DNA of 64,000 nt, taken from contig NZ_CP141059.1 in assembly GCF_034661235.1 (NCBI RefSeq), positions 186,001-250,000 of the forward strand, given 5' to 3'. The notes under the pieces were generated by a model, which made no database searches, was not told the DNA's origin, and saw only the letters and a program-made list of their open reading frames with translations. This stretch comes from Nocardioides bizhenqiangii. Lineage in GTDB: Bacteria; Actinomycetota; Actinomycetes; Propionibacteriales; Nocardioidaceae. Positions 11,806-28,544 of the stretch are shown one piece after another (position 1 is the first letter of the stretch; every line of letters starts with the position of its first letter). Position numbers and translations under genes: made by a program.

Positions 11806-11961
11806 GTCCCCAATCGTAGGGGCGGTCCGCGCACCACCGTGGCTCAACCTCGGCATCGGCGCGGCCCCGCAACCGTCCACAGCCGACGGCCGCAACGCCG
11901 TCCTCCACAGGGCGTCGGCCGGCAGGCATGGGCGTGCGACGACCCGGCGACATCCTCGGAC

Positions 11962-13035
11962 ATGACCACCCTCACCGCCCCGACCGTGGGCCCTCCCGAA
12001 CCACTCATCCTCACCGCCGACCAGAGCCTGCTCGGCGAGCTGCTGCCCCTCGCCGCCGCGGCCGACATCACACCGGTCGCGGCACACGAACCACTCGCGG
12101 CGCTGGCGTCGTGGAGCCGCGCGCCGGTCGTACTCGTCGGCGCCGACCTCGCCCCCGACGTCGCGCGGCTCGCCCCGGAGAAGCGGCCGCACGTCTACGT
12201 CGTGTCGCACCAGCGGGCACCGGACGACCTGTTCCGGACCGCGCTGCAGATCGGTGCCGAGCAGGTGGTCGAGATCGCCGGGTCGTCGGCCTGGCTGGTC
12301 GAGATGCTCGCCGACCTGACCGAGCGGCGTACCGCCCGGGGCCGGGTGATCGGCGTCATCGGGGGCTCCGGCGGGGCGGGCGCCACGACGTTCGCGTGCG
12401 CACTGGGACAGGGCGCGGCCCGTGCCGGCGACGCGGTCGTGATCGACTGCGACCCGCAGGGACCGGGCCTCGACCGGATGCTCGGGCTCGAGCGCACCGA
12501 CGGCTTCCACTGGGACGCGTTGTGCCAGACCACCGGCCGGCTCAGCGCCCGGGCACTGCGGGACGCGCTACCGCGCGCGGGTTCGCTGGGCGTGCTGTCG
12601 TGGTACGTCGGCGCAGGGGCGCAGACCCTGCAGGCGTTCGCCGTGCGGGAGGCACTCTCGGCCGCACGCCGTGGCCACGACACCGTCGTCGTCGACCTGC
12701 CCCGCACCTCCGACCGTCTCGTCGACGAGATCGCCGCCCGCTGCGACCGGCTCCTCGTCGTGACCATCGGCACCGTTCTCGGCGTCAGCGCCGCCGCCCG
12801 GATGCGGGCCCGGTTAGCCGGCCACCCGGACGTCGGCGTGGTGCTCCGCGGCGATGCCGTCGACCCGGCCGACGTGGAGTCGGTGGTGCGGATGCCGGTG
12901 GTGGTGCAGATGCGCGACCAACCCCGGTTGTCCGAGGCGCTCGACCTCGGGCTCGGGCCGCTGCGGTCGCGGCGCGGACCGCTCGCGCGTGCGGTCGCCA
13001 CGGTGCTCGGCGCGCCCGAGAGCGCCGTCGCATGA
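11962..13035 (+). CDS. ssd: Ssd/TadZ/CpaE-like ATPase of the Tad pilus locus
   Basis: The 357-residue protein has an N-terminal pseudo-receiver region (about 1-120) and then a MinD/ParA-type ATPase domain. Its deviant Walker A is GGSGGAGATTFACAL, where the usual signature Lys before G-T-T is absent, as in several Ssd/TadZ proteins. The next acidic motif is VVIDCDPQGPGLDRM, and Walker B is DTVVVDLPR. TadZ/CpaE proteins place Tad machinery at the pole or septum; Ssd is also described as a septum-site protein in mycobacteria. The ATG is 26 bp after a run in which no other start is better. Its stop overlaps the tadA start by 4 bp. Confidence 0.85.
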   Translation: MTTLTAPTVGPPEPLILTADQSLLGELLPLAAAADITPVAAHEPLAALASWSRAPVVLVGADLAPDVARLAPEKRPHVYVVSHQRAPDDLFRTALQIGAEQVVEIAGSSAWLVEMLADLTERRTARGRVIGVIGGSGGAGATTFACALGQGAARAGDAVVIDCDPQGPGLDRMLGLERTDGFHWDALCQTTGRLSARALRDALPRAGSLGVLSWYVGAGAQTLQAFAVREALSAARRGHDTVVVDLPRTSDRLVDEIAARCDRLLVVTIGTVLGVSAAARMRARLAGHPDVGVVLRGDAVDPADVESVVRMPVVVQMRDQPRLSEALDLGLGPLRSRRGPLARAVATVLGAPESAVA

Positions 13036-13730
13036 CGAACGACCTGATCGACGAGGTCGCCGGCCTGGTGGAAGAGGTACGCCGTCGGCTGGCCCGGACG
13101 CCGGGCGAGCTGACACCGCACCGGGTCGCCGAGGCGCTCCGCGCCGCGGGACGCCCGGTGGGGGATGCGACGGTGCTCGCCGTCTACGAGGCGCTGCGGC
13201 GCGACGTGGTCGGTGCCGGGCCGCTCGACCCGCTGTTGCGACAGCCGGGCGTCACCGACGTGCTCGTCAACGGCGCCGGCGACGTCTACGTCGACCGCGG
13301 GTCGGGGCTGGAGCGGACCGACGTGCGACTCGGGTCGGAGGACGCCGTACGACGGCTCGCGCAGCGGCTGGTCGCCACCGGCGGCCGGCGTCTCGACGAC
13401 GCGGCGCCGTACGCCGACGTGCGGCTGCCTGACGGCACCCGCTGCCACGCGGTGCTGGCGCCGCTGGCGCGGCCCGGCACCGCGATCTCGTTGCGGGTGC
13501 CGCGTCGGGGCGGGTTCAGCCTGGCGCAGCTGCGGGACGCCGGCACGCTCACCGACGAGTCGCTCGAGCTGGTGCGGCTGGTGGTCGGCGCCCGGCTGGC
13601 GTTCCTCGTGACCGGCGGGACCGGCAGCGGGAAGACCACGCTGCTGTCGGCGCTCCTCGGTGCCGTCGACCCCGCCGAGCGGATCGTCGTGGTCGAGGAC
13701 GCCACCGAGCTGCGCCCGGACCAGCAGCAC
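13032..13730 (+). pseudogene. tadA: tadA (cpaF) 5' half, interrupted after codon 233 by an integrative element
   Basis: This is the N-terminal half of the secretion ATPase that powers the Tad pilus. It holds the N-domain (VTDVLVNGAGDVYVDRG), the Walker A site (LVTGGTGSGKTTLLSALLGAVDP) and the Asp box (RIVVVEDATELRPDQQH). At the His codon 13728-13730 the sequence switches to element DNA. Translation would continue through ~107 unrelated residues to a stop at 14052-14054. Joining 13730 to 27282 restores the frame exactly and gives H-VVGLEARPANLEG..., the normal continuation. The intact protein would have 392 residues, the usual length. As integrated, the gene lacks the Walker B/His-box half and cannot be functional. 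Confidence 0.92.
13727..13730. other. Left attachment junction (core GCAC)
   Basis: The tadA sequence GACCAGCAGCAC runs into element sequence ATTCCTCTAGTACG. GCAC is the only stretch shared with the other junction. That is consistent with the short crossover core of serine integrases, in which a central dinucleotide is exchanged. Confidence 0.75.
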
Positions 13731-13774
13731 ATTCCTCTAGTACGTTTCAGCCTGGCGACACTAGGATCCATTCC

Positions 13775-15367
13775 ATGCGTCCGCTCGCAGCGATCTACGT
13801 GCGCATCTCCCGCGACAAGGAGGGCAAGGGTCTCGGCGTCGGACGACAGGAAGCTGACTGCCGCCTGCTGGCCGAGAAACTTGGGTTCGACGTCGCCGAC
13901 GTCTACGACGACAACGACTTCAGTGCGACTAAGACGAAGCCGCGGCCGCGCTTCGAGCAACTCATGGAGGACGCCAAGTCAGGCAAGTTCTCAGCCGTCC
14001 TCACGTGGCACACAGACCGCCTCTACCGTCGGCCAGCTGATCTACACCGTTTGATAGCTGTGCTGAAGCCACGTGACATCCCGGTCTACACGGTGAAGGC
14101 CGGCGCTCTTGACCTCACGACATCGAGTGGGCGGATGCAGGCGGGCATCTTCGCCGAGATCGCGCAGCACGAGGTCGAGCTGAAAGCAGAACGACAGAAG
14201 CGCAAAGAGCTAGAGCTGGCTCAGAGCGGCGAGCCCCGCACCAGTTCCCGCGCGTTCGGATTCGAGCCGGATGGAAGAACCTGGCGGCAGCCAGAAGCAG
14301 AGATGATCCAGCAGGCGACCGCCGACGTGCTGGCAGGGACCTCACTCGCCGAGATCATCCGACGCTGGAACGCATCGGGCTACAAGACGGCTCGGGGACG
14401 TGACGACTGGACGCATGGACGAGTCCGGGCAGTTCTCACGCGGTGGAAGAACGCAGGAGTGCGCGAGCGCAATATCTACGACGGCAACAAGATCGTCGAC
14501 ACCGAGCTGTACCCAGGGACGTGGGAGCCGCTGGTCTCCCGCGCTGAGTTGGAGGCCGTACGGAATCTCCTGTTCGACCCGAAGCGCCGGACCGGGCCGG
14601 GCAACCACGTCAGGAAGCATCTCCTCTCGTTCTTCCTCACGTGCGGAGCCTGCGGGCACCCCCTCCGAGCTGGCAACACTCAGTCCTATGGGAAGCGACA
14701 TCTGACCTATCAGTGCGGCGGCAAGCACACGACGGCCGAGGGCAAGACGTGCTGGTCCTCGATCTCCTACGCGGTCGCAGAGGAGACCGTGCGCGACCAC
14801 ATCGCGAAGCGCCTCGCTCTCCCTGACGCCAGTCTCTTCCGCGCCACCAACGAGGACCGCGAGGCGTTCGAAGCCAACCACGAGGCGCGGGCAAGGCTAG
14901 AGAGCGATCGCGCCCGAATCCATGAGCTGAAGCTCGACCGGGTGGACAAGGCCGTGCTGCTCGCAGAGGTGGCCGCTGAACTCGACGCCCTTGCCGAGCA
15001 GTTCGAGCGCCTCGCGCAGCGCGGAGCCCTGGCAGAGACCATGCGGGGATTCACTCGAATCGAAGACGCGGAGGTCCCCGAAGAAGACTCGTCCACCGGC
15101 AAGGCAGTGGACCTCACCAAGCTCATCGGCAACATCAAGGCCGCTCGGTCTGCCGCACGCGAGCGGTTCGACGCGCTGGAGCTGTCGACACAACGCCAGA
15201 TCCTCGAGGCGCTGGTCCGCGTCATCATCCTGCCCGCAACTCCGGGACGCCAGTACCGCGGCAACCGCGAACTCTCCGCCGAACGAGTGGAGATCGTGGA
15301 CCTGGACCCGAAGACCGGCGAGCCGCTCCCCGAGGAACTGCTCGCCACTGCTTGGACGCTGCGGTAG
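13775..15367 (+). CDS. int: Large serine recombinase (site-specific integrase)
   Basis: The 530-residue protein has the resolvase catalytic domain at residues 1-150. The nucleophile Ser is in AAIYVRISRDKEG; the arginine-containing motifs include LTWHTDRLYRRPADL and GALDLTTSSGRMQAGIFAEIAQHEVE. A Recombinase domain follows (~165-280), and then a zinc ribbon (FFLTCGACGHPLRAG with a second Cys pair in QCGGKHT...KTC). A coiled-coil-like C-terminal region runs about 350-470. This is the full architecture of phiC31/Bxb1-type integrases, which need no host factor. It lies 44 bp from the left junction, reading inward, so in the circular form its promoter would come from the opposite end of the element or the att region. 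It is the enzyme expected to have targeted tadA. Confidence 0.95.
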   Translation: MRPLAAIYVRISRDKEGKGLGVGRQEADCRLLAEKLGFDVADVYDDNDFSATKTKPRPRFEQLMEDAKSGKFSAVLTWHTDRLYRRPADLHRLIAVLKPRDIPVYTVKAGALDLTTSSGRMQAGIFAEIAQHEVELKAERQKRKELELAQSGEPRTSSRAFGFEPDGRTWRQPEAEMIQQATADVLAGTSLAEIIRRWNASGYKTARGRDDWTHGRVRAVLTRWKNAGVRERNIYDGNKIVDTELYPGTWEPLVSRAELEAVRNLLFDPKRRTGPGNHVRKHLLSFFLTCGACGHPLRAGNTQSYGKRHLTYQCGGKHTTAEGKTCWSSISYAVAEETVRDHIAKRLALPDASLFRATNEDREAFEANHEARARLESDRARIHELKLDRVDKAVLLAEVAAELDALAEQFERLAQRGALAETMRGFTRIEDAEVPEEDSSTGKAVDLTKLIGNIKAARSAARERFDALELSTQRQILEALVRVIILPATPGRQYRGNRELSAERVEIVDLDPKTGEPLPEELLATAWTLR

Positions 15368-15382
15368 GCGAGGAGCGGGAGT

Positions 15383-15406
15383 GGCCCGGTGAGGCCTCTC
15401 CGGGCC
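15383..15406 (+). terminator. Hairpin after the integrase gene
   Basis: GGCCCGG at 15383-15389 pairs with CCGGGCC at 15400-15406 around a 10-base loop, 16 bp after the integrase stop. There is no U-run, as is common for hairpin terminators in high-GC actinobacteria. Confidence 0.55.
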
Positions 15407-15902
15407 CGTTCCGGCAATCGCTGGCTACTGGCTGGGGGGCGCTGGGCTGAGTGATCCCTCGGCCGCCCTGGGGCAGGCGAAAAATGTCGTCACGCACCAT
15501 TGAGTCACGCGGTGGCGTGGGTCATGATTCTCCTGAGAACGGCGGGCCATCGCGGTGATGCAGGGTCCGTGCAGCTCCCCTCCGAGCGTGAGTCCCACAG
15601 CTCCCTACCGCGTTTCAGACTTGGCCGCAGAACCCATCCCGTAAGCGATCGCCAAGGCGCCAGTACTCAAGGGCATCGGCAACCCGCAGGCCCCTGGTCG
15701 GGCAAACACCTGGCCAGGGGTAACTAACAGTCTCTCCGCTAGGCGTGGCTGAAACCTTGTCGAGGCTGCATGAATCCGAGTAGTCACATTGCGTCCTCCT
15801 TGGCGGGAGAGCATGGGCAGGAGGGGTCCCGTTCTCTGGGACCCCTCCTCAACCCAAAGCTGACCCGGCCTGGAGGACTCCCGCCACCTGCAGGAGGACC
15901 CC
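15407..15902. other. Non-coding control-like region with several hairpins
   Basis: No gene was found in about 500 bp. CCCCTGG at 15691-15697 pairs with CCAGGGG at 15714-15720. AGGAGGGGTCCC at 15819-15830 pairs perfectly with 15838-15849 around a 7-base loop, 53 bp before the next start. Bases 15420-15475 resemble, imperfectly, the stretch at 18838-18900 of the same element. The RBS of the next gene is GCAGGAGGACCCC just before its ATG. The density of structure suggests a replication, transfer or regulatory region; which of these cannot be decided from sequence. Confidence 0.45.
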
Positions 15903-16913
15903 ATGGGTCTTGTCCCTTCCGAGGACGCCGCCCGAGCCGCCATGAGCGAGGCGTGTTCCTACGTCCGCCGTTATCCCAAGCTGGTCCATTGGATGCAGAC
16001 CGGCGACGTCGAGGCAGAACGGATCCTCGACAACTTCCGCAATCGAACCCCGGTCACGGTCTGGCTCCGCCGTGTGTCTTATCGGCGTCACGAGGATGTT
16101 CTGGTCGAGCTGCTCGACGCCGCCGACGTCTTTGTGAACCGCAGTGGACAGGCTGCTCGCATCATGGAGACGTACCGTCAGCAGCGGGACAGCGCCAAGC
16201 TTGACGAGCTGAGTTCCTCTGCTCGGGCCGTCCATCGCGCTGTGTACTCCCTCGGCATCTATCAGGGCGCCCCAGTGCTCGGTTCCCTGCGTTATGTCCA
16301 GACCACGGTCGCGGCTCAGTCGCAGAACCGCATCCGGTTGTCTCCCAGGGCGGTGCAGAAGCACATCGAGAAGCTAGTTGAGCGTGGCCTTTTCCTCAGC
16401 TACGACCCGGGTCGGCGCAGCACCTACGGCAACGAGTCCGGGACCATTGATCTCGAGCTGAGCCCCGTCGCCAGCGAGCCCGACGTTGACATGGTCCTTC
16501 TTCTGTCGCTCACCCTGGACCAGCGTCTCGCGCTCTCGGACTACGTCATCGCGTCGCAGGAGCGTCGCAAGAAGGTTCTCGCCGACCTTGACGACCGCAG
16601 GTCTCGGATGCATGCCGCCCTGATCGATCTGAGCGACGTCCTGCGAGGCATCGATCTCGACGCCGACTGGATCGAGGTTCCGACGATTACCGGCAGCAGC
16701 GTGTGCCTTCCGCACCACCCGATCGACGGTTATGTGTTGTTGGAGGACGGCTCTCGTGTGGACTACTTCTTCGCCCTCGCGCTTGTGCACGAGTGTTCTT
16801 GCGAGTCCTCGCACCTGCCGCCGTTGATGTGCCCCTGCGCCTCGGCCAAGATCGAAGAGGCATGCGCCTGGGTGTCCTGGGGCAATGCTCCGGTGTCTCA
16901 CGTGGTGGGGTAA
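15903..16913 (+). CDS. Element protein of unknown function with winged-helix-like segment
   Basis: The 336-residue protein is not recognised. Residues ~140-180 (RIRLSPRAVQKHIEKLVERGLFLSYDPGRRSTYGN) look like a helix-turn-helix plus wing, suggesting DNA binding. A helical region follows (LTLDQRLALSDYVIASQERRKKVLADLDDRRSRMH), and a Cys/His-rich C-terminus (HECSCESSHLPPLMCPCASAKIEEACAW) could bind metal. It has a strong RBS (GGAGGA) and sits directly after a hairpin-rich spacer. Replication initiator or transcriptional regulator of the element are both possible; the evidence does not separate them. Confidence 0.6.
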   Translation: MGLVPSEDAARAAMSEACSYVRRYPKLVHWMQTGDVEAERILDNFRNRTPVTVWLRRVSYRRHEDVLVELLDAADVFVNRSGQAARIMETYRQQRDSAKLDELSSSARAVHRAVYSLGIYQGAPVLGSLRYVQTTVAAQSQNRIRLSPRAVQKHIEKLVERGLFLSYDPGRRSTYGNESGTIDLELSPVASEPDVDMVLLLSLTLDQRLALSDYVIASQERRKKVLADLDDRRSRMHAALIDLSDVLRGIDLDADWIEVPTITGSSVCLPHHPIDGYVLLEDGSRVDYFFALALVHECSCESSHLPPLMCPCASAKIEEACAWVSWGNAPVSHVVG

Positions 16914-17037
16914 CACCCCAGTCTTTGGAGGTAACAAAGAGTCTTTCCGCAACAGGAGCGACAGCGACTCAACCAGAGACACAAGCCTCGCGAATATGTA
17001 CGCCGGGTTGGTACGCCGTGCGGTCGATAGGCCTTCT

Positions 17038-17601
17038 ATGCCTCGTCACTGTGGGATGTGCGGACACCCTCGCCGAGCCGAGTTGGAAGCTCGGATCCTC
17101 CGCAATGAACCGATCGTTCTGGTGGCGAGCGACGCGGGCTTTTCGGTCGCCGCTGTCAACAGGCATCGGCGTGCCCACCTGCGTCCTGAGCTGCGCGCCC
17201 AGCTCGCCACCCGCGCACCCGCTCATATCGCGGACTTCGCGGACCAGCTAGCGGAGCTGGCCGACGACGCGAACAGCGTCCGTGACTTCGCCCGCGAGTC
17301 CGACAACCCGGACCTGCTCCTCCGAGCCTCGGCAAGCAAGCGCGACACGATCCTCACGCTGATCCATCATCTCGGCGTCGACTCCACCGAGACGGTTGAG
17401 TCCCTGCGTGAGGCCATTGCCCTGGCGGCGGCATGCGTTCGAGTACTGCCATCGCATCCCGACGTCGTGACGCAGGTGGTCGCGGACCTCCGCACCCAGG
17501 GCCAAGACCGCCTCGCAGACGAACTCGCGAGCGCAGTAGGCAACGTCCGCGGGCTGCCAGGCATCCAAGCGAATCGAGCCCTGAAGGAGGCGTCTCGATG
17601 A
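17038..17601 (+). CDS. Cys-His-containing helix-turn-helix protein (phage/element type)
   Basis: The product (187 residues from the ATG at 17038) begins PRHCGMCGHPRRAELEA. A helix-turn-helix follows (ILRNEPIVLVASDAGFSVAAVNRHRRAHL). The C-x2-C-x-H opening with an SxxAVxRHxxxHL recognition helix is common in small phage and island proteins that resemble terminase small subunits or regulators. The remainder is helical and acidic-basic (LAELADDANSVRDFARESDNPDLLLRASASKRDTI). An in-frame ATG at 16996 is possible, but neither start has a clear RBS. It overlaps the next gene by 4 bp. Its function is probably DNA binding. Confidence 0.6.
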   Translation: MPRHCGMCGHPRRAELEARILRNEPIVLVASDAGFSVAAVNRHRRAHLRPELRAQLATRAPAHIADFADQLAELADDANSVRDFARESDNPDLLLRASASKRDTILTLIHHLGVDSTETVESLREAIALAAACVRVLPSHPDVVTQVVADLRTQGQDRLADELASAVGNVRGLPGIQANRALKEASR

Positions 17602-17840
17602 CGACTCACAACCCGCCCGAGACTCAGACCGCTCTCGACCTGCTCAACGAGGTGGTGCTGACGGCGACGCTCCACAAGCTCGACCTGGCGGATACGCCCG
17701 ACGACATCCTGACCCTCGCGGGACCGAGCAGAGTCGACCTGCTCGCCCTGGCCGGATCCAGCCCCGACGACCTCATGGTCGCGGCCGAGCGCGGAACCGT
17801 CAGCGTCGCGCCAACGGACCCCGACATCACCATCTACTGA
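17598..17840 (+). CDS. Small acidic hypothetical protein
   Basis: The 80-residue, acidic, Leu-rich product starts at the ATG overlapping the previous stop (ATGA). The RBS GGAGGC is in the preceding gene. No motif is recognised. Tight coupling with the HTH gene upstream and the 145-residue gene 18 bp downstream indicates one transcript. A helical structure is likely (LDLLNEVVLTATLHKLDL). Confidence 0.55.
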   Translation: MTTHNPPETQTALDLLNEVVLTATLHKLDLADTPDDILTLAGPSRVDLLALAGSSPDDLMVAAERGTVSVAPTDPDITIY

Positions 17841-17858
17841 TCAGGAGAACCACCGATC

Positions 17859-18296
17859 ATGCCTAACGCACCCATGCCCAAGCCCGGTGACATCCTCCAC
17901 TTCCTGCGGAGCGGCCAGACCTACCACGACATCCGGCGCGGCCAGTTCGCGGCGTTCGTCTCGCGCCGAGGGCAGGAGCTGGTCGTGACGGCGGACCTCA
18001 TCGAGGCCAGCAAGGACCGCAACGGACTGGTCGCGCCGTGGCTCGCTCTCGCCCACGACCCTGAGGCCCAGGTCCGGCGCTTCGATGAGCAGATCGTCGG
18101 CACCGGCCCGTGGCCATCGGACCTTGTGAAGCAGGAGCCGGGATCCACTGAGCACGACGACGCCCGCCGCGCTGCGGTCCGTGAGGCCAACGCCCTGCCC
18201 ACCAAGGGAGAGCGCGCCCGGGCCCTGGCTGAGGTCGAGCGCCGCTACGGCCCCTCGCAGCCCACCAGTCGGACCAACGCGGTCTACAGCCGGTGA
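17859..18296 (+). CDS. Hypothetical protein of the element
   Basis: The 145-residue protein starts at an ATG 18 bp after the previous gene, behind CAGGAGAACC. The N-terminal half reads like a small beta-barrel (GDILHFLRSGQTYHDIRRGQFAAFVSRRGQELVVTADLIEAS), and the C-terminal half is helical and charged. No family is recognised. Phage-derived elements often carry such a protein before an endonuclease-like gene, which is the case here (4-bp overlap with the next gene). Confidence 0.55.
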   Translation: MPNAPMPKPGDILHFLRSGQTYHDIRRGQFAAFVSRRGQELVVTADLIEASKDRNGLVAPWLALAHDPEAQVRRFDEQIVGTGPWPSDLVKQEPGSTEHDDARRAAVREANALPTKGERARALAEVERRYGPSQPTSRTNAVYSR

Positions 18297-18676
18297 CCGA
18301 GATGTCCACCGGCGCCCCTCACCGCAACAAGGCCCGAGGCAGCGAGTTCAAAGGCGAGGTCGCGGACTTCCTCCGCAGCGCTGGCCATTCCGAGGCGAAG
18401 CCCGAGACGCCCGTCACGATCGGGGAGGAGCTGCGGTCCCCTGGCGACATCGGCGGCATCCCGTTCGTGCTCGCGGTCCGGACCTCCCAGCGCCACGACA
18501 TCTCGACCCAACTCGATCAAGCCAGCAATACGGCGTTCTTCCTCGGCCGGCGGTGGTTCGGCGCTGTCCTCTCCCGCCGTGGCCGTCCGATCGGTGAGAG
18601 CTACGTCGTCGTCGATCTCGCGACCTTCGCGGACCTGATGCAGTACCTCCCCGCCGACGTTCCCGACGAAGACTGA
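18293..18676 (+). CDS. Nuclease-like (PD-(D/E)XK-type) small protein
   Basis: The 127-residue product has the layout of small phage/plasmid Holliday-junction-resolvase-like or endonuclease-like proteins. It starts with GSEFKGEVADFLRSAGH, goes on to an acidic-Gly motif (SPGDIGGIPFVLAVRTSQRHD), and ends with a strand-helix (ESYVVVDLATFADLM). In active enzymes the second strand usually reads (E/Q)xK; here it is V-R-T, so catalysis is doubtful or the residue has migrated. The start is GTG at 18293 overlapping the previous stop, or ATG at 18302. It is the last gene before the 23-bp inverted repeat. Confidence 0.55.
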   Translation: MTEMSTGAPHRNKARGSEFKGEVADFLRSAGHSEAKPETPVTIGEELRSPGDIGGIPFVLAVRTSQRHDISTQLDQASNTAFFLGRRWFGAVLSRRGRPIGESYVVVDLATFADLMQYLPADVPDED

Positions 18677-18679
18677 TCT

Positions 18680-18772
18680 GGTCCTGCCTCCTGGGGGTGC
18701 CGTCGCGCCACTCCATAACCTCGATAGCTCGTGGGTGACTACGACGTGGCGGCACCCCCAGGAGGCAGGACC
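18680..18772. repeat. Perfect 23-bp inverted repeat with 47-bp spacer
   Basis: Bases 18680-18702 (starting GGTCCTGCCTCC) are the exact reverse complement of 18750-18772. The arms extend imperfectly inward through GCCAC/GTGGC. It begins 4 bp after the nuclease-like gene's stop and lies between convergent genes (18676 plus, 18944 minus). A bidirectional terminator is the simplest reading, but a 23-bp perfect stem is longer than is usual for that. An origin of transfer or replication is an alternative. Confidence 0.85.
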
Positions 18773-18837
18773 CGAGCTGGCCGGTACCGCGGCTCAGCTC
18801 GGCCATGACAAGTCACCCGGGCCATCGTCAGACGAGA

Positions 18838-18900
18838 CTGGCTCGGTTGCTGGGGGCGCAGGGCTGAGGGACTCCTGGGCCGCCCAGGAGGGTCAGGCTG
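18838..18900. repeat. Diverged second copy of a GC-rich motif, with hairpin 18872-18890
   Basis: The stretch CTGGGGGCGCAGGGCTGAG matches CTGGGGGGCGCTGGGCTGAG near 15432 with few differences, and similarity continues into GGCCGCCC. Here CTCCTGGG (18872-18879) pairs with CCCAGGAG (18883-18890) around CCG, forming a tight hairpin 54 bp downstream of the minus-strand gene's stop codon. Both copies lie downstream of element genes and may be terminators. Confidence 0.5.
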
Positions 18901-18943
18901 GCCGCGGCTGGCGAAGTCCTCCGACTGCTGGGCGAGGTTCCGC

Positions 18944-21136: not shown

Positions 21137-21229
21137 GCTTCGACGGCAACGCCGCTGGTACGGCGGCACGGATCGGCGATGATGAGTTACACAGGTCAGC
21201 GTCGGGCCTGGCAGTTGGCCGGGGTGCTT

Positions 21230-22453
21230 CTATGTAAGCTCCAGAATGCGTGCAACGTCGTGCTGCTGCCAGACATCGACTGCGCGCGAGTCGCTGTGGC
21301 CAACAAACCACTTCGGCAAGTGAAACTCGGCAACAGGGAGATCGAAGATCTGGCGGCGACGCGCAGTTAGCAGCACAAGGTCCACGTGAATCCGCAGGGA
21401 GCGGATGCGGCCCGCTGCAGACCAGTTAGTCTCGACTCTCTCCGCGGGTGTGCTGAGAAGTACGAGATCCTCGACCTTCAGGCCAAGTCCTAGGGCTCTT
21501 AAGGCGATGACTCCTCCGTAACTGTGGGCGAACAAGCGCCGGATTCGTCCGTCGTAGGGTGCCGCCCAGTCCAGAAGGCGTTGAGCGGCGACGTCACGAT
21601 GTCTGGCTGAGTACTTGCCGCTCCATTGGAAGTACTGCCCATTGCTATACAAGTCCGGGTTGATGGTGCCCCTGATGAACTCGTGAAAGTCGCCACGTGG
21701 CGTCCACCAGGTGCCCACGTAGGCGCCGGTGCCGTGGACAATCGTCGAAGGTGGATGAGGGCCGGTGCCGCTCTCGACCCGCTGTCGGTCCTCGACGAGA
21801 TCGGCGGTGTCTTCCCCGAGAGCTACAGACGCCAGCTCCTTCGCTAGAAGGCCAGCTGCGGTCGTGACGGCCCTGAGTACGCTCGCATTGATGCTGTTCT
21901 GTGGCGGTTCGACTGCAGCCTGCGAGAGGACCGTGCGCGCCGCTGCCAGCGTGTCCGCGGCGTCTATCGTCCCGGTCACGGTTGGCGGGTCTGTTGCGGT
22001 GGGCTGAAGAGCTGCGGCGGCGGCCACCTGCCGCAGACCAGCGTCAGTCGCCTGCATGGTGCGTAGCCAACTGACTGCGGCGACGGGATCACCTGCCGCA
22101 GCTTGCGTCCACAAGACACCTCCCTGCGGTCGCACGGATTGGGATCTCGAGGGTTGCCACCCAGGGCGGCGCTCTCTGCGGGAGACCAACTGTCCTAGGC
22201 CGTAGTCAGCAAGTAGGTCGTTCGAGTCTCTGAGCAACGCCAGGTAGCCGCTGCTGTCGACCGGCGGTGGGAGGTCGCGGAAACCCATGGCAGTCGCGTC
22301 CTCGTCAAGACCTTCGGTCGCCTCCGGCGAGTGCAGAGCCGCCCCGAGAGTGAGCGCACGAGCGGCGACGTTCAAGTCGGCTGACAGGCTGTCATCGAAG
22401 GTGAGGTCCGGCTCATCTGTCGGCTGCGGTCCGGAAGGCAGTTCTGTGGGCAC
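21230..22453 (-). CDS. Alpha/beta-hydrolase-like protein with unusual N-terminal half
   Basis: The 407-residue protein has a helical, Ala-rich N-terminal half (~1-215) with no recognised domain. The C-terminal half looks like a lipase/esterase fold. An oxyanion-type HGTG motif (STIVHGTGAYVGTWW) is followed by a nucleophile elbow AHSYGGVIALRALG (the family consensus is GxSxG; here Ala replaces the first Gly). Then come the strand LVLLSTPAE and a possible catalytic His in GHSDSRAVDVWQQHD. No signal peptide is present, so it acts in the cytoplasm or with the membrane-anchored protein encoded 93 bp downstream. Together with the gene at 22541 it forms a three-gene minus-strand operon whose products have no assigned role. 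Confidence 0.65.
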   Translation of the reverse strand: MPTELPSGPQPTDEPDLTFDDSLSADLNVAARALTLGAALHSPEATEGLDEDATAMGFRDLPPPVDSSGYLALLRDSNDLLADYGLGQLVSRRERRPGWQPSRSQSVRPQGGVLWTQAAAGDPVAAVSWLRTMQATDAGLRQVAAAAALQPTATDPPTVTGTIDAADTLAAARTVLSQAAVEPPQNSINASVLRAVTTAAGLLAKELASVALGEDTADLVEDRQRVESGTGPHPPSTIVHGTGAYVGTWWTPRGDFHEFIRGTINPDLYSNGQYFQWSGKYSARHRDVAAQRLLDWAAPYDGRIRRLFAHSYGGVIALRALGLGLKVEDLVLLSTPAERVETNWSAAGRIRSLRIHVDLVLLTARRRQIFDLPVAEFHLPKWFVGHSDSRAVDVWQQHDVARILELT

Positions 22454-22540
22454 CCTTTATCTTGATCGATCGGGGCGCGCCTCGCGTGGCTCTTGCCCGA
22501 AGGCATGTGAAACCACCGCGATACATGCGCCTGAGCGCCA

Positions 22541-23011
22541 TCACTCGTAGCGCGCGTAAACCGCTGTGACCTGCTGTGTCCAGAACGTCAGGCGCTGGTC
22601 CGCTGTTGGCTTCGTCGGCAGCATTCCAAGTGCACTAGCGAGGCGGTAGAAGCCGCCTCCTGCGTCATTCTCGTTGAGATATAGGACGATGGCCGAGATC
22701 AGCGCGCCCACATCCTCGCGCATTCTGACGGCAACTTCGCCTAGCATCGCGCCCATCGCCGCCCGCTCACTTTCTTTATCGAAGTCAAACGGGCGGGCAT
22801 CCGTTCGTTGTGCAAGCACTGCGTTCAGTTCTGTGTAGGAAGTCGTTCGCTGGAGCGACGCCTGTTCGACCAGGAAGTCGGCAGTCGCGTCCACTAGCTC
22901 GGCCCATTCGAGGTCGTCGCGTCCCCACTTCACGGGCACATGATGCACCCTCGCGAAGCGCTTCGAAAGACGTCGACAGTGTTGTTGCGCCGACGTCCAC
23001 AAGCAGGCCAT
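22541..23011 (-). CDS. Hypothetical protein, first gene of the minus-strand operon
   Basis: The product is ~156 residues from the ATG at 23011, which follows GGGAGGG at suitable distance; GTG codons at 22948 or 22939 would give ~130 residues starting near VPVKWGRDDLEW. The body is a compact alpha-helical protein (LVDATADFLVEQASLQRTTSYTELNAVLA, then ERAAMGAMLGEVAVRM, ALISAIVLYLNENDAGGGFYRLA). Proteins of this kind recur near actinobacterial islands, to my recollection, without assigned function. It lies 87 bp upstream of the hydrolase gene and is divergent from the gene at 23205. Confidence 0.6.
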   Translation of the reverse strand: MACLWTSAQQHCRRLSKRFARVHHVPVKWGRDDLEWAELVDATADFLVEQASLQRTTSYTELNAVLAQRTDARPFDFDKESERAAMGAMLGEVAVRMREDVGALISAIVLYLNENDAGGGFYRLASALGMLPTKPTADQRLTFWTQQVTAVYARYE

Positions 23012-23204
23012 TGAGACTCGCCCTCCCAACGCGCCGAGCTTCCCTCAGAGACGTCCACTCTCTGACTCTCAAGGTGCTGTCCGCTGCGTCGTCATCCGCC
23101 GACCTTTGAGACCATTCGGCTCCTCGGTTGACACCCGTCTACCGCTGGGCTCTCTGCTGTCTGGGTCGGGACTCTCCGGCCCTCAAACGGCAGGAGACAC
23201 CGCA

Positions 23205-23501
23205 ATGCCCGCATCAACCAAGCACATCCTCATCAACGTTGAGCGCATGGCCGCCGACGACGAGCTGCTCAAGCTCTGGAACGAGATCGCACAGGCCAAG
23301 AACGACGACGGCACCGAGCGCACGCTAAACCAGTCCTGGACCGCGTTCGTCGCGGCCGCCGACGCCGCTCACATCGCCGACAGGATCCCCGGCACGGTCG
23401 GCCGGACCTTCAAGACCAAGTACGCCGCCGAGCCCCAGCCCAAGAAGCCCGCCGCCAAGCGGACCACCACCCGCAAGACCACCACCAAGGCGGCCAAGTG
23501 A
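23205..23501 (+). CDS. Small protein with basic Lys/Thr-rich tail
   Basis: The 98-residue product starts at the ATG behind GGCAGGAGACACC. The first ~70 residues are helical (LINVERMAADDELLKLWNEIAQAKNDD, LNQSWTAFVAAADAAHIAD). The tail (PKKPAAKRTTTRKTTTKAAK) resembles the nucleic-acid-binding tails of actinobacterial DNA-binding proteins. It is first in a four-gene plus-strand run ending with the methyltransferase. A TTGACA at 23128-23133 could be a -35 element, but no good -10 follows. Function is unknown. Confidence 0.6.
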   Translation: MPASTKHILINVERMAADDELLKLWNEIAQAKNDDGTERTLNQSWTAFVAAADAAHIADRIPGTVGRTFKTKYAAEPQPKKPAAKRTTTRKTTTKAAK

Positions 23502-23704
23502 TGAGCCTCGTCGCCGCGCGTGACCTCACAGCACCTGTGACCGTGGTCCTGACCCTCCCGTGGAGGTCCGCACCGATCACGCTCCACGCAATCAGCGTTC
23601 GTGTCGACCCTGATGACCGCGTGCTCCTAGTCGGTGAGGGCGGTCGCGGCCTGGTCGCACTCGACGGCGGCGAGCTGGTCCTCACGGTGGAGGCTGACCG
23701 GTGA
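23501..23704 (+). CDS. Very small hypothetical protein
   Basis: The 67-residue product is mostly beta-strand-like (APVTVVLTLPWRSAPITLHAISVRV, RVLLVGEGGRGLVAL). Its ATG overlaps the previous stop (TGATG), and its own stop overlaps the GTG of the resolvase gene. It therefore belongs to the same transcript. No family is recognised. Confidence 0.5.
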   Translation: MSLVAARDLTAPVTVVLTLPWRSAPITLHAISVRVDPDDRVLLVGEGGRGLVALDGGELVLTVEADR

Positions 23705-24264
23705 CCGCCGCGACCTACGGCTACGCCCGCGTCTCGACCGGTCAGCAGACCACCGACCAGCAGGACGACGCCCTCCGCGCCGCTGGCTGCTCCAAGGTGT
23801 TCGGCGACAAGCTGTCCGGAGCCAAGGCCGACCGGCCCGGACTCGCGGCCTGCCTCGATCAGCTCCGACCCGGCGACACTCTCGTGATCGTCGCCCTCGA
23901 CCGGCTGGGGCGCTCAACGCTCCAAGTCCTATCGACGCTCCAAGAGCTGCACCAGCGCGGTGTGATCGTGAAGTCGCTCCGAGAGTCCCTGGACTTCTCC
24001 ACCCCGCTCGGGCAGGCCGTCGCCACGATCATGTCGGCACTCGCTGAGATGGAGTTGGCTCTCATCCGCGAGCGAGCCGCTGCCGCTCGCGAGGCCGCCC
24101 GCGCACGTGGCAAGCAGACAGGCCGGCCCCGTGTCCTCGACGCATCCGCAGCTGCCCTAGCGAGGAGGATGCGTGCCAACGGCGAGCCCATAGCCGTGAT
24201 CGCCAAGACCCTCGGCGTCTCACGTGCGAGCGTCTACCGCTACACGGAGGCGATTACCCCGTGA
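23701..24264 (+). CDS. Small serine recombinase (resolvase/invertase family)
   Basis: The 187-residue protein is complete. The catalytic Ser is in YGYARVSTGQQTTDQQ, with D-R-L-G-R-S at ~68 and the E-helix IMSALAEMELALIRERAAAA. A linker RGKQTGRPRVLD and a C-terminal helix-turn-helix (IAVIAKTLGVSRASVYRY) follow. This is the Tn3-resolvase/Hin size class and is distinct from the large integrase of the same element. It could resolve dimers of a circular intermediate or invert a segment. No pair of matching inverted sites was found nearby. Confidence 0.92.
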   Translation: MTAATYGYARVSTGQQTTDQQDDALRAAGCSKVFGDKLSGAKADRPGLAACLDQLRPGDTLVIVALDRLGRSTLQVLSTLQELHQRGVIVKSLRESLDFSTPLGQAVATIMSALAEMELALIRERAAAAREAARARGKQTGRPRVLDASAAALARRMRANGEPIAVIAKTLGVSRASVYRYTEAITP

Positions 24265-24367
24265 GCCGCTCGACACGCGCATCCCGTACCGAGCGCCCGA
24301 CTGTTGAGCAGTACCGTATCCGAAGGGGTGGGCAGCACCTCTCCTTGATCGAGCCGGGCGCAGCGCC

Positions 24368-26482
24368 GTGACCGCCGAGGGCCTGTTCACGGTTCTGCTC
24401 AGTCACTACGGAACGAGCGCGAGCGAGCAGGAGACGTTGCAAGTGAAAGGCATCGCCGAAGCTCTGGTCGCAGCAGACCTGGCATCGAGCGATCGCGAGA
24501 TCGCTCTGGCTGAGCGGTTCGACCAACTCCACACGATGCTCTACATGCGCGGTGGCATTAGACCCACCAACGCCGCCGTCGAGGAGTTGGCCAAGCTCCT
24601 GTTGTTGCGCGTCTGGCTAGCCCGCGAGCCAAACGCGTTCGTGCAAGGCGTAGGTCGTCTGTCGGATCTGCTGGAACTATCTGACCCTGCTGATGTCTAC
24701 CTGGACGGCGTAAAGGCGGCCTTCCGCCAAGCGATTGCAGAGCCCGACCTCGCGGCGTCGCTGCCGGACGGTACGACTCAGACCGTGTGGCCTCTCGATG
24801 AACCGTTGAGAATCGGACGAGCCGACGTGCTAGCTGAAGCGCTGTCGGTACTCGCCGAGGCAGTGCCGATGGAGTCCAAGTCAGCGCCAGGAGACATCCT
24901 CGGTTCAGCGTTCGACATCTTCCTTCGTGGTCGCTACGACCATGCGGGCGGACTCGCGACGTACTTGACCCCTACGGTCGTGACCTCGGCCGCCGCTGAT
25001 ATCGCACTCAGTCTCGTCGATCCTTGGTCGTTCAAGGGCATGTCGTTCGGGGATCCATGCAGCGGCACAGGCCGATTCCTCGTGGCTCTCCTCGACCGCC
25101 TGAAGACCTTCTATGGTGACTCGGCAAGGGGCAAGGCCAAGTTTCAGGAAATGCTGTCCGCGGGCGTGTTTGGGGCAGATCAGTCGGCAAGCTCCATCGC
25201 CAAGGCTCGTGTGAACCTGCTCCTGTACGGAGCGCACCACCCTCGCCTGTTCACCGTCGAGGACTCAGTCACTGACCCTGCTCTCGACAAGATGCGCGAC
25301 ACGCTGTCACTAATACTCACGAACCCCCCATTCGGGGAGGGGAAGTACGACAGCGTCGAAGGGATCCGTAGGACGGAGGAAGACCTCTCCTCTATGAGTG
25401 GAGGCGCGCGACGAATCGACCCAGCACTCGCGTTCGTAGCTCGATGCGCCAACCTGTTGCGGCCAGGAGGCGTGCTTGGAATCGTCCTGCCGGACGGGCT
25501 CGTAGACGGTCCAGTTCTGCGGGAGGAGTTGTTCGGCGCGTCGAGTCGGGGTAGCCAACTGACGGTCGAGGCGAGCATCAGTCTGCCGACCGCAACGTTC
25601 GCCCTAAGCGGGACTGTCGCTAGGACCAGCTTGCTGTTCCTGCGCAAGGGCGAGTCGACGTCAGAGCGAATCTTCCTCGCGCGCGCTGAGCACATCGGGT
25701 ACCTCAAGCAGTCCGGTCGGGCCGTGCCAGACCCTAAGGGGAGCGATCTACCTCTGATCGTCGCTTCAGGCATTGACGCACTCGTGACGAAGGCACGCAC
25801 CCGAACGCCGCTCGTCGCGTCCGAGGCGCCGCTGATCGCTGCGATTCCGCGTCAAGACGTCACGTCTCTTGATCCGGCGGCATGGGATCCGGGCAGCATG
25901 AAGGCGCGCAAGGAGCTCAAGTCCAGCGGCGCGAGCATGGCGGTCTACCTAGCTCCACAGTCGAGGCGGCGGTTGGCTCGCGCTGCTGACGAGGTCTCTG
26001 CTTTCGTGTCAGTGCTTCATGTCGATCCGTTCGGCTCTGTGGCCTGGCATGAGGCCGCTTCGTACGCGCCAGCAACCCCTGGCCAGACGGCTACAGCGGG
26101 CCAGGTGCTCGTCTCGTTGCTCAACCCCAGCAAGCTTCGCGCGTTCGTCGTGCCCGACGCGTTCCCGCTAATCGAGTGCTCGATGGAGTTCGGAGTCTTC
26201 GACGCCTTAGATGTCGATCCCTACTACGTCCTGGCCCTCCTACACGATCCGCGCGTGAAAAGTCAGCTAGCTCCGCTGGGCCGAGGAACCTCTAGCTCGC
26301 GGCGGCGCATCACGTCGGCGGATGTGCTTGGCCTTCGCGTGCCGAAGGCAAGCATGCGCGCGGTCGCGAGTGTCGGGCGAGAGACTCGTGAGCGTATCGA
26401 GGCCATCCGAATCAGTCAGTCAGGCCTAGCTGCGATATACGAGTCGCAGCGCCCAGTCACGGCGCGAACAATTCGACCGTAA
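24368..26482 (+). CDS. N6-adenine DNA methyltransferase of a type II R-M system
   Basis: The 704-residue enzyme has a gamma-class order: SAM-binding motif I FGDPCSGTGRFLVALLDRL (about 225-245), motif X-like region before it, and catalytic motif IV LTNPPFGEGKYD (about 318). The N-terminal helical domain resembles HsdM-type proteins. The C-terminal ~230 residues probably form the target-recognition domain. It protects host DNA from the nuclease encoded convergently, and the two coding regions overlap by 26 bp at their 3' ends. It starts at GTG at 24368, 103 bp after the resolvase gene. Confidence 0.85.
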   Translation: MTAEGLFTVLLSHYGTSASEQETLQVKGIAEALVAADLASSDREIALAERFDQLHTMLYMRGGIRPTNAAVEELAKLLLLRVWLAREPNAFVQGVGRLSDLLELSDPADVYLDGVKAAFRQAIAEPDLAASLPDGTTQTVWPLDEPLRIGRADVLAEALSVLAEAVPMESKSAPGDILGSAFDIFLRGRYDHAGGLATYLTPTVVTSAAADIALSLVDPWSFKGMSFGDPCSGTGRFLVALLDRLKTFYGDSARGKAKFQEMLSAGVFGADQSASSIAKARVNLLLYGAHHPRLFTVEDSVTDPALDKMRDTLSLILTNPPFGEGKYDSVEGIRRTEEDLSSMSGGARRIDPALAFVARCANLLRPGGVLGIVLPDGLVDGPVLREELFGASSRGSQLTVEASISLPTATFALSGTVARTSLLFLRKGESTSERIFLARAEHIGYLKQSGRAVPDPKGSDLPLIVASGIDALVTKARTRTPLVASEAPLIAAIPRQDVTSLDPAAWDPGSMKARKELKSSGASMAVYLAPQSRRRLARAADEVSAFVSVLHVDPFGSVAWHEAASYAPATPGQTATAGQVLVSLLNPSKLRAFVVPDAFPLIECSMEFGVFDALDVDPYYVLALLHDPRVKSQLAPLGRGTSSSRRRITSADVLGLRVPKASMRAVASVGRETRERIEAIRISQSGLAAIYESQRPVTARTIRP

Positions 26483-27146
26483 CCGTGCCGCTGCGGTCCT
26501 CCTCTGCGTGAAAGATCTTCTCCGCCCCGACGCCGTCTTCAAGCTCGATCATGAGCGCAGGGAGCCCGTTCTCCACGTTTCCACCGCCGTGACGAGCGTA
26601 GGTGTGGTCCAGTGCAGGGCGAGGCGGGAAGACCTGAAAGTTCGCGTTCGGTCTTCTCGGGTCGGCGAGCTTTGGTTTCCCGAAGTCTTCGATCCAGCGG
26701 ATGTACCGTTCCGCGAAGATCCGGTGCTCCGCGGGTCTGAGCCGCCAGACCCGAACACGCACTTTGTCGTTGAGGTTCACATCGATGCTGCAGAGATAGA
26801 TCGCAGGCACATCGAGCAAAGCCTCCATTGCCGGCAAGTTGTTGGCTTGGAAGTTCCACCGCGGTGCGGCAGCTCCGCGACGGTCGAGAGAGTCGAGGAA
26901 GTTCGCTGACTTGATCTCCGACCCGTCCTCCATGTCGAGGCCTTTGCCTCTCATGCCTCCTCCGACGAGACCGGTAACGAGCGAGACCAACATCTGACCG
27001 ATGTAGCCGGTGTCGATCTGAGCTGGCTGGAGGGTGAGATCTCGCCAGTAATGCAGGAAGCGTCGCTGGTCGACGACCTGCTGCTGCAGCAGTCGGGCGC
27101 ATAACCGCTCACGTTCGCTGTCTGCCAGGTCCCGCACCGTCTCCAT
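26457..27146 (-). CDS. Type II restriction endonuclease, MamI-like
   Basis: The 229-residue protein has a PD-(D/E)XK-type core in GKGLDMEDGSEIKSANFLDSL, where Asp, Glu and Lys fit D...ExK. It also has GYIGQMLVSLVTGLVGGG upstream and a strand IYLCSIDVNLNDKVRVRVWRL downstream. From memory this pattern matches the MamI restriction-endonuclease family; without a search that name is tentative. It is convergent with the methyltransferase and ends 135 bp before the right junction. A TTG at 27164 is an alternative start. As for most R-M pairs, methyltransferase expression must precede nuclease expression; no control (C) gene is visible. Confidence 0.65.
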   Translation of the reverse strand: METVRDLADSERERLCARLLQQQVVDQRRFLHYWRDLTLQPAQIDTGYIGQMLVSLVTGLVGGGMRGKGLDMEDGSEIKSANFLDSLDRRGAAAPRWNFQANNLPAMEALLDVPAIYLCSIDVNLNDKVRVRVWRLRPAEHRIFAERYIRWIEDFGKPKLADPRRPNANFQVFPPRPALDHTYARHGGGNVENGLPALMIELEDGVGAEKIFHAEEDRSGTVTVELFAP

Positions 27147-27277
27147 GGCACGACTATCGGGCAAGTCTCCGCATGATCCAAGCGGTAGGCAGCGAGTCGG
27201 CAGTTGACACGCAGTCGGAGTAGTGGTGTCTGCTACTCATGATCAAAGACACGTATTACATGAACATGCGGACACCC
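27147..27277. other. Right-end non-coding segment of the element
   Basis: The 131 bp between the endonuclease start and the right core holds no gene. A TTGACA (27203-27208) reads toward tadA, with only a weak -10. ATGs at 27239, 27260 and 27266 are all out of frame with the tadA fragment. If this promoter works it could also transcribe the downstream tad genes, or the integrase gene in the circular form. Confidence 0.4.
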
Positions 27278-27281
27278 GCAC
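27278..27281. other. Right attachment junction (core GCAC)
   Basis: Element sequence GCGGACACCC runs into GCAC and then the tadA continuation GTCGTCGGGCTCGAG. The reconstructed uninterrupted site would read GACCAGCAGCAC joined to GTCGTCGGG. Confidence 0.75.
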
Positions 27282-27761
27282 GTCGTCGGGCTCGAGGCGC
27301 GGCCGGCCAACCTCGAGGGCACGGGCGCGGTGGCGCTCCGCGACCTGGTGGGGCAGGCGCTGCGGATGCGGCCGGACCGGCTCGTCGTCGGCGAGGTGCG
27401 GGATGGCGCGGTGGTCGACCTGATGGCGGCGATGAACACCGGCCACGAGGGCGGTTGCGGCACCCTGCACGCCAACTCGGCAGCCGACCTGCCGGCACGG
27501 ATCGAGGCGCTCGCGCTCGCGGCCGGTCTCGGGCGGGCGGCAGCACACAGCCAGCTCGCGTCCGCGCTCGAGGTCGTGCTCCACATGAGCCGCGACCGTG
27601 ACGGGCAGCGCCGGCTCAGCGAGGTCGCCGTGCTCGAGCGTGACCAGGCAGGGCTGGTCCGGACGTCGACGGCGACCCGGATCGACCGGGCCGGTGCGCT
27701 GATGGCCGGCCCGGCAGCGGGGCGGCTGCTCGACCTGATCGAGTCGCGGCGGCGGCGGTGA
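27282..27761 (+). pseudogene. tadA: tadA (cpaF) 3' half
   Basis: The 159 codons from VVGLEARPANLEG to the stop complete the secretion ATPase. They include the Walker B region (RPDRLVVGEVRDGAVVDL), the His box (MNTGHEGGCGTLHANS) and the C-terminal helical part. There is no start codon in frame with an RBS before 27330 (GTG), so alone it cannot yield an active ATPase. The frame matches codon 233 of the 5' half exactly. No frameshift or stop is seen in either half, which indicates a recent insertion or selection for restoration by excision. The stop overlaps the tadB GTG. Confidence 0.92.
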
Positions 27762-28543
27762 CCGGCTGGACGCTGGTCGCGTGCCTCCTGGCCGGTTGCG
27801 CGGCACTGCTGCTGACGCCCGGCCCGCCGGCACCGCCGGGCCGGACCCGACAGCGCGGGCGGGCGTCGTACGGCGTCGTCGCGGCGGGGGTCGCCGGCGT
27901 CGGCTGGTGGCTGGTCGACGAGCCCCGCCTGCTCGTGCTCGGTGTCGTCGGCGGTGCGGCGGTCCTCGCGGCGGGTCGTCTGGTCGCGCGGCGTCGCGCG
28001 GACCGGGCCGCAGCGCAGGTTCGAGGCCAGGTGGTGGAGCTGTGCGACGGGCTGCAGGCCGAGCTCGCGGCCGGACAGACGGCGCCGACCGCGCTCGAGC
28101 GGGTCGCCGCGGAGTGGCCCGCGCTGCAACCGGCCACCCGATCGGCCGCGGCGGGGGGCGACGTGCCCACCGCGCTGCGAGAGCTGGCCTCCGCACCGGG
28201 CGCCGGCGACCTCAGGGTCGTCGCCGCGGCCTGGCAGGTCGCCCATCGCACCGGTCACGGGCTCGCCGACGCGCTCGCCCGGGTCGCCCAGGAGCTGCGG
28301 GACGCCGAGCAGACGCGGCGGGTGGTCACCGGCGAGCTGGCATCCGCGAGGGCGACCGCCCGACTGGTCGCGTGTCTGCCGCTGGTGGCGCTGCTGATGG
28401 GCAGCGGAGCCGGTGCCGATCCGTGGGCGTTCCTGCTCGGACACCCGGTCGGGCTCGCGTGCCTGGCCGGCGGCGTCGGGTGCGGCATCGCCGGTCTGGC
28501 CTGGATCGAGGCGCTCGCCCGTGACGTCGAGCGGGGGCGGTGA
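27758..28543 (+). CDS. tadB: TadB-like inner-membrane pilus platform protein
   Basis: The 261-residue protein has two N-terminal hydrophobic stretches (TLVACLLAGCAALLL and YGVVAAGVAGVGWWL). A type II secretion F-domain follows (VVELCDGLQAELAAGQTAPTALE, DLRVVAAAWQVAHRTGHGLADAL), and two C-terminal helices (LVACLPLVALLMGSG and GLACLAGGVGCGIAGLAWI). TadB and TadC form the platform on which TadA acts. The GTG start overlaps the tadA stop, so its translation was coupled to tadA. With tadA interrupted, expression depends on the element's right end. Confidence 0.85.
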   Translation: MTGWTLVACLLAGCAALLLTPGPPAPPGRTRQRGRASYGVVAAGVAGVGWWLVDEPRLLVLGVVGGAAVLAAGRLVARRRADRAAAQVRGQVVELCDGLQAELAAGQTAPTALERVAAEWPALQPATRSAAAGGDVPTALRELASAPGAGDLRVVAAAWQVAHRTGHGLADALARVAQELRDAEQTRRVVTGELASARATARLVACLPLVALLMGSGAGADPWAFLLGHPVGLACLAGGVGCGIAGLAWIEALARDVERGR

Positions 28544-28544
28544 C

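Follow-up and report, generated by a model that had tools for sequence, protein, structure and literature searches.

An integrative island of a large serine recombinase splits tadA in Nocardioides bizhenqiangii and belongs to a lineage that recurrently enters tadA/cpaF, comM and comEC

INTRODUCTION

Mobile elements that break competence genes have been argued to escape removal by transformation, an idea that has been both modelled and documented (Croucher et al. 2016, PMC4774983). The targets described there, comYC, comFA, comM and comEC, are entered by diverse integrases in streptococci, bacilli and Gram-negatives (PMC4774983). A survey of large serine recombinases (LSRs) found their targets to be enriched in competence genes, with a magnesium-chelatase-like gene accounting for 12.4% of site-specific integrases (Durrant et al. 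2022, PMC10083194). Here we analyse an LSR-encoding island that interrupts tadA, the ATPase gene of a Tad pilus cluster, in a 64,000-nt stretch of the Nocardioides bizhenqiangii genome (NZ_CP141059.1, positions 186,001 to 250,000). The whole stretch is called the window below, and coordinates are given in its own numbering unless another sequence is named.

DNA uptake in Actinobacteria has been dissected in Micrococcus luteus (PMC4322843, PMC8467076). Both tad clusters of that species are needed for Flp pili and transformation (PMC4322843; Angelov 2015); transformation was abolished by the deletion of any tad gene except one tadB, without which it fell more than 100-fold (PMC4322843). Missense changes in TadA1/CpaF were among the mutants of a later competence screen (PMC8467076). 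The genes comM and comEC are natural-transformation genes as well.

The locus resembles the competence-gene-disrupting elements of Croucher et al. in the recurrent, integrase-driven insertion into the coding sequence of what is probably a transformation gene; it differs in host and gene, the target here being the Tad-pilus ATPase of Actinobacteria, and the words ‘tad’ and ‘Actinobacteria’ are absent from the main text of that paper (PMC4774983). With the LSR survey it shares the enrichment in competence genes and the use of one target by distantly related LSRs; none of the words ‘secretion’, ‘ATPase’, ‘T2SSE’, ‘pilus’ or ‘pili’ appears in the main text of the survey, its supplements being outside this scope (PMC10083194). 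The comM islands of Acinetobacter sit in a transformation gene and often carry defence systems, but they are largely Tn7-like AbaR elements, whereas the window island uses an LSR (PMC11472951). Satellite size, an LSR and defence cargo are common to the island and to LSR-encoding phage satellites, such as PLE of V. cholerae (PMC6002521) and the phage-inducible chromosomal islands of mycobacteria (PMC10654092). One relative of the island, in genome G241, has terminase, portal and capsid genes as phage satellites do, while no structural gene is recognisable in the window island.

That mobile elements lie in competence genes and that LSRs enter comM is thus already known. Our literature search, with most subscription papers, bioRxiv and supplements outside its scope, returned no description of serine integrases entering tadA/cpaF; to that extent the recurrent use of these genes by LSRs is new, and so is its connection to Tad-dependent DNA uptake in Actinobacteria. 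A different kind of precedent is set by the skin element of sigK, the nifD element and the comK prophage, which are developmentally excised (PMC5025042). As in these elements, a recombinase-bearing insert lies in frame and its excision would restore the gene; unlike skin- or nifD-like elements, the window island is not fixed in its lineage.

RESULTS

The island interrupts tadA in frame at a CA core

The tadA gene starts at 13032 on the forward strand and is interrupted in frame after 692 bases. Its 5′ part (13032..13723) ends in the CA core within the His codon of an HPH motif; the 3′ part (27275..27761, forward strand) carries the VGEVRD and TLHANS motifs. Both pieces are open and, when joined, form 392 codons with a single stop at the end; excision in silico restores the reading frame. 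The cut parts Walker A (residue 195 on) from VGEVRD (269) and TLHANS (294). An earlier note on this DNA had claimed a tadA gene split in frame without a stop or frameshift in either half, an integrase at one end, a break that separates Walker A from the Walker B/His box, and a gene that excision would restore. These points hold, the last as a prediction from the joined frame: the in-frame interruption of tadA by an LSR island is real, and the 530-aa LSR begins about 50 bp inside the left end.

The breakpoint itself had to be moved. The earlier note placed it at codon 233 (13730, continuing at 27282, with GCAC shared); this junction keeps the frame but is ruled out by ortholog alignment together with the symmetry of the attP site. 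The crossover is the dinucleotide CA at 13722..13723 (attL) and 27273..27274 (attR), 7 bp upstream of the junction first proposed, and the shared GCAC is a chance match. At this site all 28 uninterrupted orthologs from other genomes encode the motif (D/x)HP(H/Q/N), as expected of an empty site. The right flank retains CAC CCG CAC (HPH), while the left flank reads CAG CAG CAC (QQH), which is island sequence. When the circle site of the window island is centred on CA, 16 of 24 arm positions are complementary, whereas the other 26 centres (−13 to +13) give 8 or fewer; the empty site shows no peak at CA. The same symmetry test on the related island of genome G223 gave 9 at CA and 9 at three other centres. 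Since the crossover is CA, by the ortholog motif and the attP symmetry, the circle sequence proposed earlier, GCGGACACCCGCACATTCC, is wrong and is replaced by ATGCGGA-CA-GCAGCACATTCC. The window island thus has a very short shared core (CA) and a dyad-symmetric attP beside the LSR gene.

For gene comparison we used 29 other genomes (18 of the same genus and 11 of the same order), with orthology defined by best match. The best match of tadA crosses the site without an insert in 28 of the 29; the remaining genome (87% complete) contains paralogs only. In two of the 28 uninterrupted orthologs (L037 and L057) a single TGA falls within the match. The island is therefore not stably associated with a split tadA across the lineage. 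The earlier note had also considered that a second intact tadA elsewhere would make the split harmless. The genome itself holds no second ortholog, but it does hold three uninterrupted paralogs of the TadA/CpaF family (about 42, 38 and 36% identity), along with GspE/PilT-type ATPases; because of these three paralogs, the cell is not without TadA/CpaF-family ATPases despite the split.

Decay of tadA is ruled out by two observations: its halves have similar identities to relatives, and relative-rate tests on the full-length protein give no sign that the split gene changes faster. Where rates are unequal, mostly in the N-terminal part, the window tadA is the less changed one. The absence of acceleration would fit a recent insertion and would fit a reversible one equally well.

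Related LSRs recurrently abut tadA/cpaF, comM and comEC

A search with the single LSR confirmed nothing in genome contigs. A profile of 12 LSRs produced 80 named loci (the best 80 of 92), and a gene was counted as a target if a piece of it lay no more than 450 bp upstream of the LSR start. By this rule tadA/cpaF accounts for 22 loci, comM for 19 and comEC for 5, which places 46 of the 80 loci in one of the three genes; the other 34 have none of the three alongside. For positions drawn at random from these loci, excluding the LSR itself, the rule would be expected to hold in 0.9 of 80 loci; with decoys (21 other window genes) it held in a single locus (L104, an FtsK/SpoIIIE-type gene). Chance proximity of these genes is ruled out by the two controls and by the presence of both gene halves in 13 rows of matches. 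Two loci (L063 and L135) were also in the query alignment; without both, the tadA/cpaF share is 20 of 78. Genes comM and comEC played no part in the choice of query-alignment rows. At L140, which is counted, the LSR is cut to 139 aa, and near misses were left uncounted: four with tadA/cpaF further off (L066, L103, L116 and L128) and one with comEC at 462 bp (L117). Recurrent, convergent targeting of competence genes is seen outright for comM and comEC; counting tadA/cpaF among such genes depends on the findings in M. luteus. The view in the earlier note that a secretion ATPase is an unusual target is reversed for this LSR lineage, in which tadA/cpaF is a frequent target beside comM and comEC.

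A Pfam scan of the 56 flanks not counted as tadA (L089, L105, L112 and L129, with too little flank, were left out) detected ChlI (ComM) in 8, Competence (ComEC) in 1 and DprA in 1. Matching at the protein level added further cases of comM and of comEC, and in several of them both halves of the gene are present. In 14 control flanks the same scan detected no competence family; it missed a comEC piece at L230, where another frame had been picked. The background control comprised 30 PF07508 loci from 60 genomes, with about 1.5 kb of flank. Half of them (15) were similar enough to the window LSR to be scored and gave one tadA/cpaF (L226) and one comEC (L230); among all 30, tadA/cpaF was matched only at L226 and at L224, the latter being the second LSR of the N. 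bizhenqiangii genome, near an intact cpaF. Viral contigs contributed 62 loci, only 41 of them with at least 300 bp upstream, and 5 hits. A gene for a DtxR/iron-dependent repressor was present in 3 of the 56 flanks, possibly another recurrent target.

The ATPase gene is struck at about six codon positions, in many Actinobacteria. In the numbering of L004, a CpaF paralog, the abutting pieces end at about 177–182, 220–221, 288–306, 324–353, 383–397 and 415–428; some of these stretches coincide with what we take to be well-known motifs such as Walker A. Positions and types were counted over 31 abutting rows (28 distinct loci). Both gene halves are found in 13 rows, 6.7–13.5 kb apart, the window and one G160 duplicate included. 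By best match, 5 of the 31 rows are of the window-tadA type and 26 of the L004 type; none matches best any of the other four ATPase types of the genome compared (L001, L002, L003 and L005).

In a tree of 101 LSRs, those of the window, G223, G160, G023 and G241 form one supported group that strikes the same codon; the LSR of G033 strikes this codon too, yet stands apart from the group. The tadA label changes 13 times on the tree, at least 9 of the changes being forced by supported branches; the mean for shuffled labels was 24.1, and in none of 500 shuffles was the number as low. Corresponding numbers are 10 changes (at least 8) for comM and 4 (at least 3) for comEC. The tree omits duplicates (L010, L013 and L143), LSRs shorter than 380 aa and weakly similar viral or control LSRs without a tadA hit; L016, with a gene half 537 bp from the LSR, was labelled TadA by hand.

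The nearest relatives lie in a different paralog

The family was represented by 294 genomes, of which 8, the window genome included, encode an LSR with E <= 1e-60. The nearest one in these genomes (66% identity) lies inside a different paralog. Both halves of a CpaF paralog of the L004 type flank the island in G223, G241, G160 and G023, and the C half of such a gene adjoins the LSR in G033. In G156 the tadA ortholog itself is in two pieces, divided at a different codon, with an overlap of about 30 residues between the two matches, and in G234 the LSR adjoins a piece of comM. The CA of the same codon is within the letters common to both ends in G223, G241, G160 and G023, with a few more letters in common in G241 and G160; the single end available in G033 fits it too. 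Measured at the CA core, the islands are 12,108 bp (G223), about 11,325 bp (G241), 10,880 bp (G160) and about 12,370 bp (G023) long.

The islands of the window, G223 and G023 have a common backbone (the LSR, a 238-aa protein, a 145-aa protein, a RusA-like protein and a resolvase) and variable cargo. In the cargo slot distal to the LSR, the G223 island encodes a GmrSD-type restriction protein (L017, 8863–10551) with an 85% identical counterpart in G023. The islands of G241 (L024) and G160 (L019/L020), also in cpaF and about 11 kb long, have another common backbone. Proteins of the G241 backbone match terminase, portal, capsid and scaffold families, as well as HNH, and have homologs in G160. By their gene content these two islands look like phage satellites with serine integrases, of the kind that we take to be called capsid-forming. 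At L019/L020 (G160 C3) cpaF was apparently struck twice: its C half, beside one LSR island, stops at about residue 416 of L004, and a second LSR match (27% identity) adjoins that end.

The window island carries restriction-modification genes

The island spans 13,551 bp (13724..27274), with a G+C content of 0.60–0.69 against about 0.72–0.79 in the flanking tad genes. The LSR gene (13775..15367, forward strand) reads inward, and its product has the Resolvase, Recombinase and Zn_ribbon_recom domains (PF00239, PF07508 and PF13408), all above the Pfam cut-off. It is followed on the forward strand by a gene for a 336-aa protein with no function assigned (15903..16913) and by genes for the 238-aa backbone protein (16885..17601; 66% identity in G223 and 45% in G023), a 79-aa reading in common with G223 (17601..17840; 47% over 70 aa, compared using the longer frame 17433–17840), the 145-aa backbone protein (17859..18296; 58% in G223 and 39% in G023) and a 127-aa protein with a weak match to the RusA-like PHROG 244 (18293..18676; 58% in G223 and 34% in G023). 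Three genes lie on the reverse strand; they encode a 741-aa protein with a PIN-like match below the Pfam cut-off (18944..21169), a 407-aa protein with a weak alpha/beta-hydrolase match, also below cut-off (21230..22453), and a 162-aa protein with no assigned function (22541..23029). Beyond them the forward strand holds a 131-aa backbone protein (23106..23501; 66% over 95 aa in G223) and the 187-aa small serine resolvase/invertase (23701..24264; 63% in G223 and 70% in G023).

The cargo is a restriction-modification pair: a type II-like N-6 DNA methyltransferase (24368..26482, forward strand) and a MamI-type restriction endonuclease (26457..27164, reverse strand). The two genes (24368–27164) converge, and their 3′ ends overlap by 26 bp.

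Phage satellites measure about 10–15 kb. The island has this size and an integrase but no set of virion genes: no structural family was found in the window proteins scanned against Pfam and PHROGs, and packaging or helper-hijacking genes were not found in the island. From its size and its relatives our guess is that it may be a satellite.

The surrounding tad genes and a second island

Upstream of tadA lies a gene for an Ssd/TadZ-like protein (10930..13035, forward strand; ParA/CbiA-type P-loop, weak matches below cut-off). Downstream, also on the forward strand, are tadB (T2SSF, 27758..28543), a frame holding a second T2SSF protein, tadC (28413..29264), a frame with DUF4244 at its end (28688..29623, the domain at about 29456–29587) and genes for a TadE-like (29341..29988) and a TadE/G-like protein (29985..30374). 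All of these downstream genes are uninterrupted.

Another island of the genome carries a second LSR (24% identity to the first), located just downstream of an intact L004-type cpaF and inside tadB of that Tad cluster. The N part of this tadB ends near 1066493 of contig C1 (G000, the genome of the window), and the gene picks up again with its C part near 1085431, about 19 kb away. As the window island splits tadA and this one splits tadB of another cluster, two Tad clusters of the genome are each broken by a different island. The second island (L235/L236) carries a primase/polymerase-type protein, and 7 bp (CGGTGGC) are common to its ends.

Elsewhere in the window, a 1228-aa protein with FtsK/SpoIIIE domains is encoded at 56473–60159 (reverse strand), which we take to be EccC-like (type VII secretion). 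A related LSR abuts a gene of the FtsK/SpoIIIE (EccC-like) type at L104. In M. luteus, transformation is affected by an FtsK/SpoIIIE gene that lies next to tad-1 (PMC8467076).

DISCUSSION

We consider it probable that the window carries an anti-competence island, that is, that its LSR lineage favours transformation genes, here breaks what is probably a DNA-uptake pilus, and in this way avoids removal by transformation. The LSR would recognise DNA encoding the conserved HP motif of TadA/CpaF-type ATPases and cross over at CA in the His codon. With Walker A severed from the later motifs, the ATPase should no longer power that Tad pilus, which in Actinobacteria is probably the DNA-uptake pilus, as in M. 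luteus. With uptake blocked, the island would escape homologous recombination with incoming island-free DNA, and the restriction-modification cargo would defend the cell. Were the LSR, together with a directionality factor, to excise the island, tadA would be restored, but this would be a side effect of mobility and not a switch under host control. Loss of transformation in this host is what we infer; comEC, comM and dprA are retained with long open frames, and the host may thus possess a transformation pathway for the island to block.

Several points weigh against this interpretation. The role of Tad in DNA uptake has been established in one species, M. luteus, and the window clusters could not be assigned by sequence to its tad-1 and tad-2. 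The tadA share of the survey is biased upward, 5 of the 12 query-alignment rows being already in tadA/cpaF; related LSRs inherit targets, and the loci are thus not independent. Decoys taken from one genome stretch, perhaps absent near many loci, form a weak control, and the random positions were not matched to genes for conservation. The second LSR of the genome is unrelated to the first.

Conserved, dispensable, multi-copy genes could also be struck for convenience alone: the lineage would then use such genes as reliable attachment sites, and loss of uptake would have no selective role. The attachment site does encode a strongly conserved motif, the genome has several TadA/CpaF paralogs, a DtxR-type regulator lies in 3 of 56 flanks, and the 34 loci with none of the three gene types count on the same side. 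We nevertheless regard this explanation as rather unlikely, given that the other 46 loci fall in just three gene types, all tied to natural transformation, that separate LSR clades strike several different positions of one gene, and that the other TadA/CpaF paralog and GspE/PilT types of the genome are the best match of no abutting piece. The earlier note proposed instead a dedicated switch, an element excised under defined conditions to turn the pilus on, as in skin/sigK or nifD. In-frame insertion, intact halves without accelerated evolution and an LSR at one end would suit such a switch, but a recent insertion would also leave the halves intact, the mobile cargo varies between islands and in the window consists of restriction-modification genes, and with tadA uninterrupted in 28 of 29 relatives and the nearest LSR relative in another paralog there is no lineage-wide association; we find a switch very unlikely. 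The least credible explanation, in our judgement, is superinfection exclusion, in which pilus loss removes a phage receptor to the benefit of a satellite-like island. Restriction systems as cargo, and phage-packaging and capsid genes in the G241 island with homologs in G160, make a conflict with phages plausible; the targeting of comM and comEC by related LSRs would be left unexplained, and our literature search found nothing on Tad pili as phage receptors in Actinobacteria.

The anti-competence interpretation can be taken further, to a generalisation that we hold with somewhat more doubt than confidence: Tad/CpaF pili may be general DNA-uptake machines of Actinobacteria, whose ATPase an LSR lineage of satellite-like islands has repeatedly evolved to break, at six-odd positions, as an anti-competence strategy, with two clusters broken in the present genome by unrelated islands.

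The data yield a collection of LSRs whose attachment sites are mapped, and they show that small islands with defence genes commonly insert into competence genes. If the island is indeed directed against competence, what excision gives back would be DNA uptake and not adhesion. Island-bearing strains are then predicted to be non-transformable, with island loss restoring uptake, and the insertions would serve as evidence, supplied by nature, for counting the Tad ATPase as part of the transformation machinery throughout the phylum.

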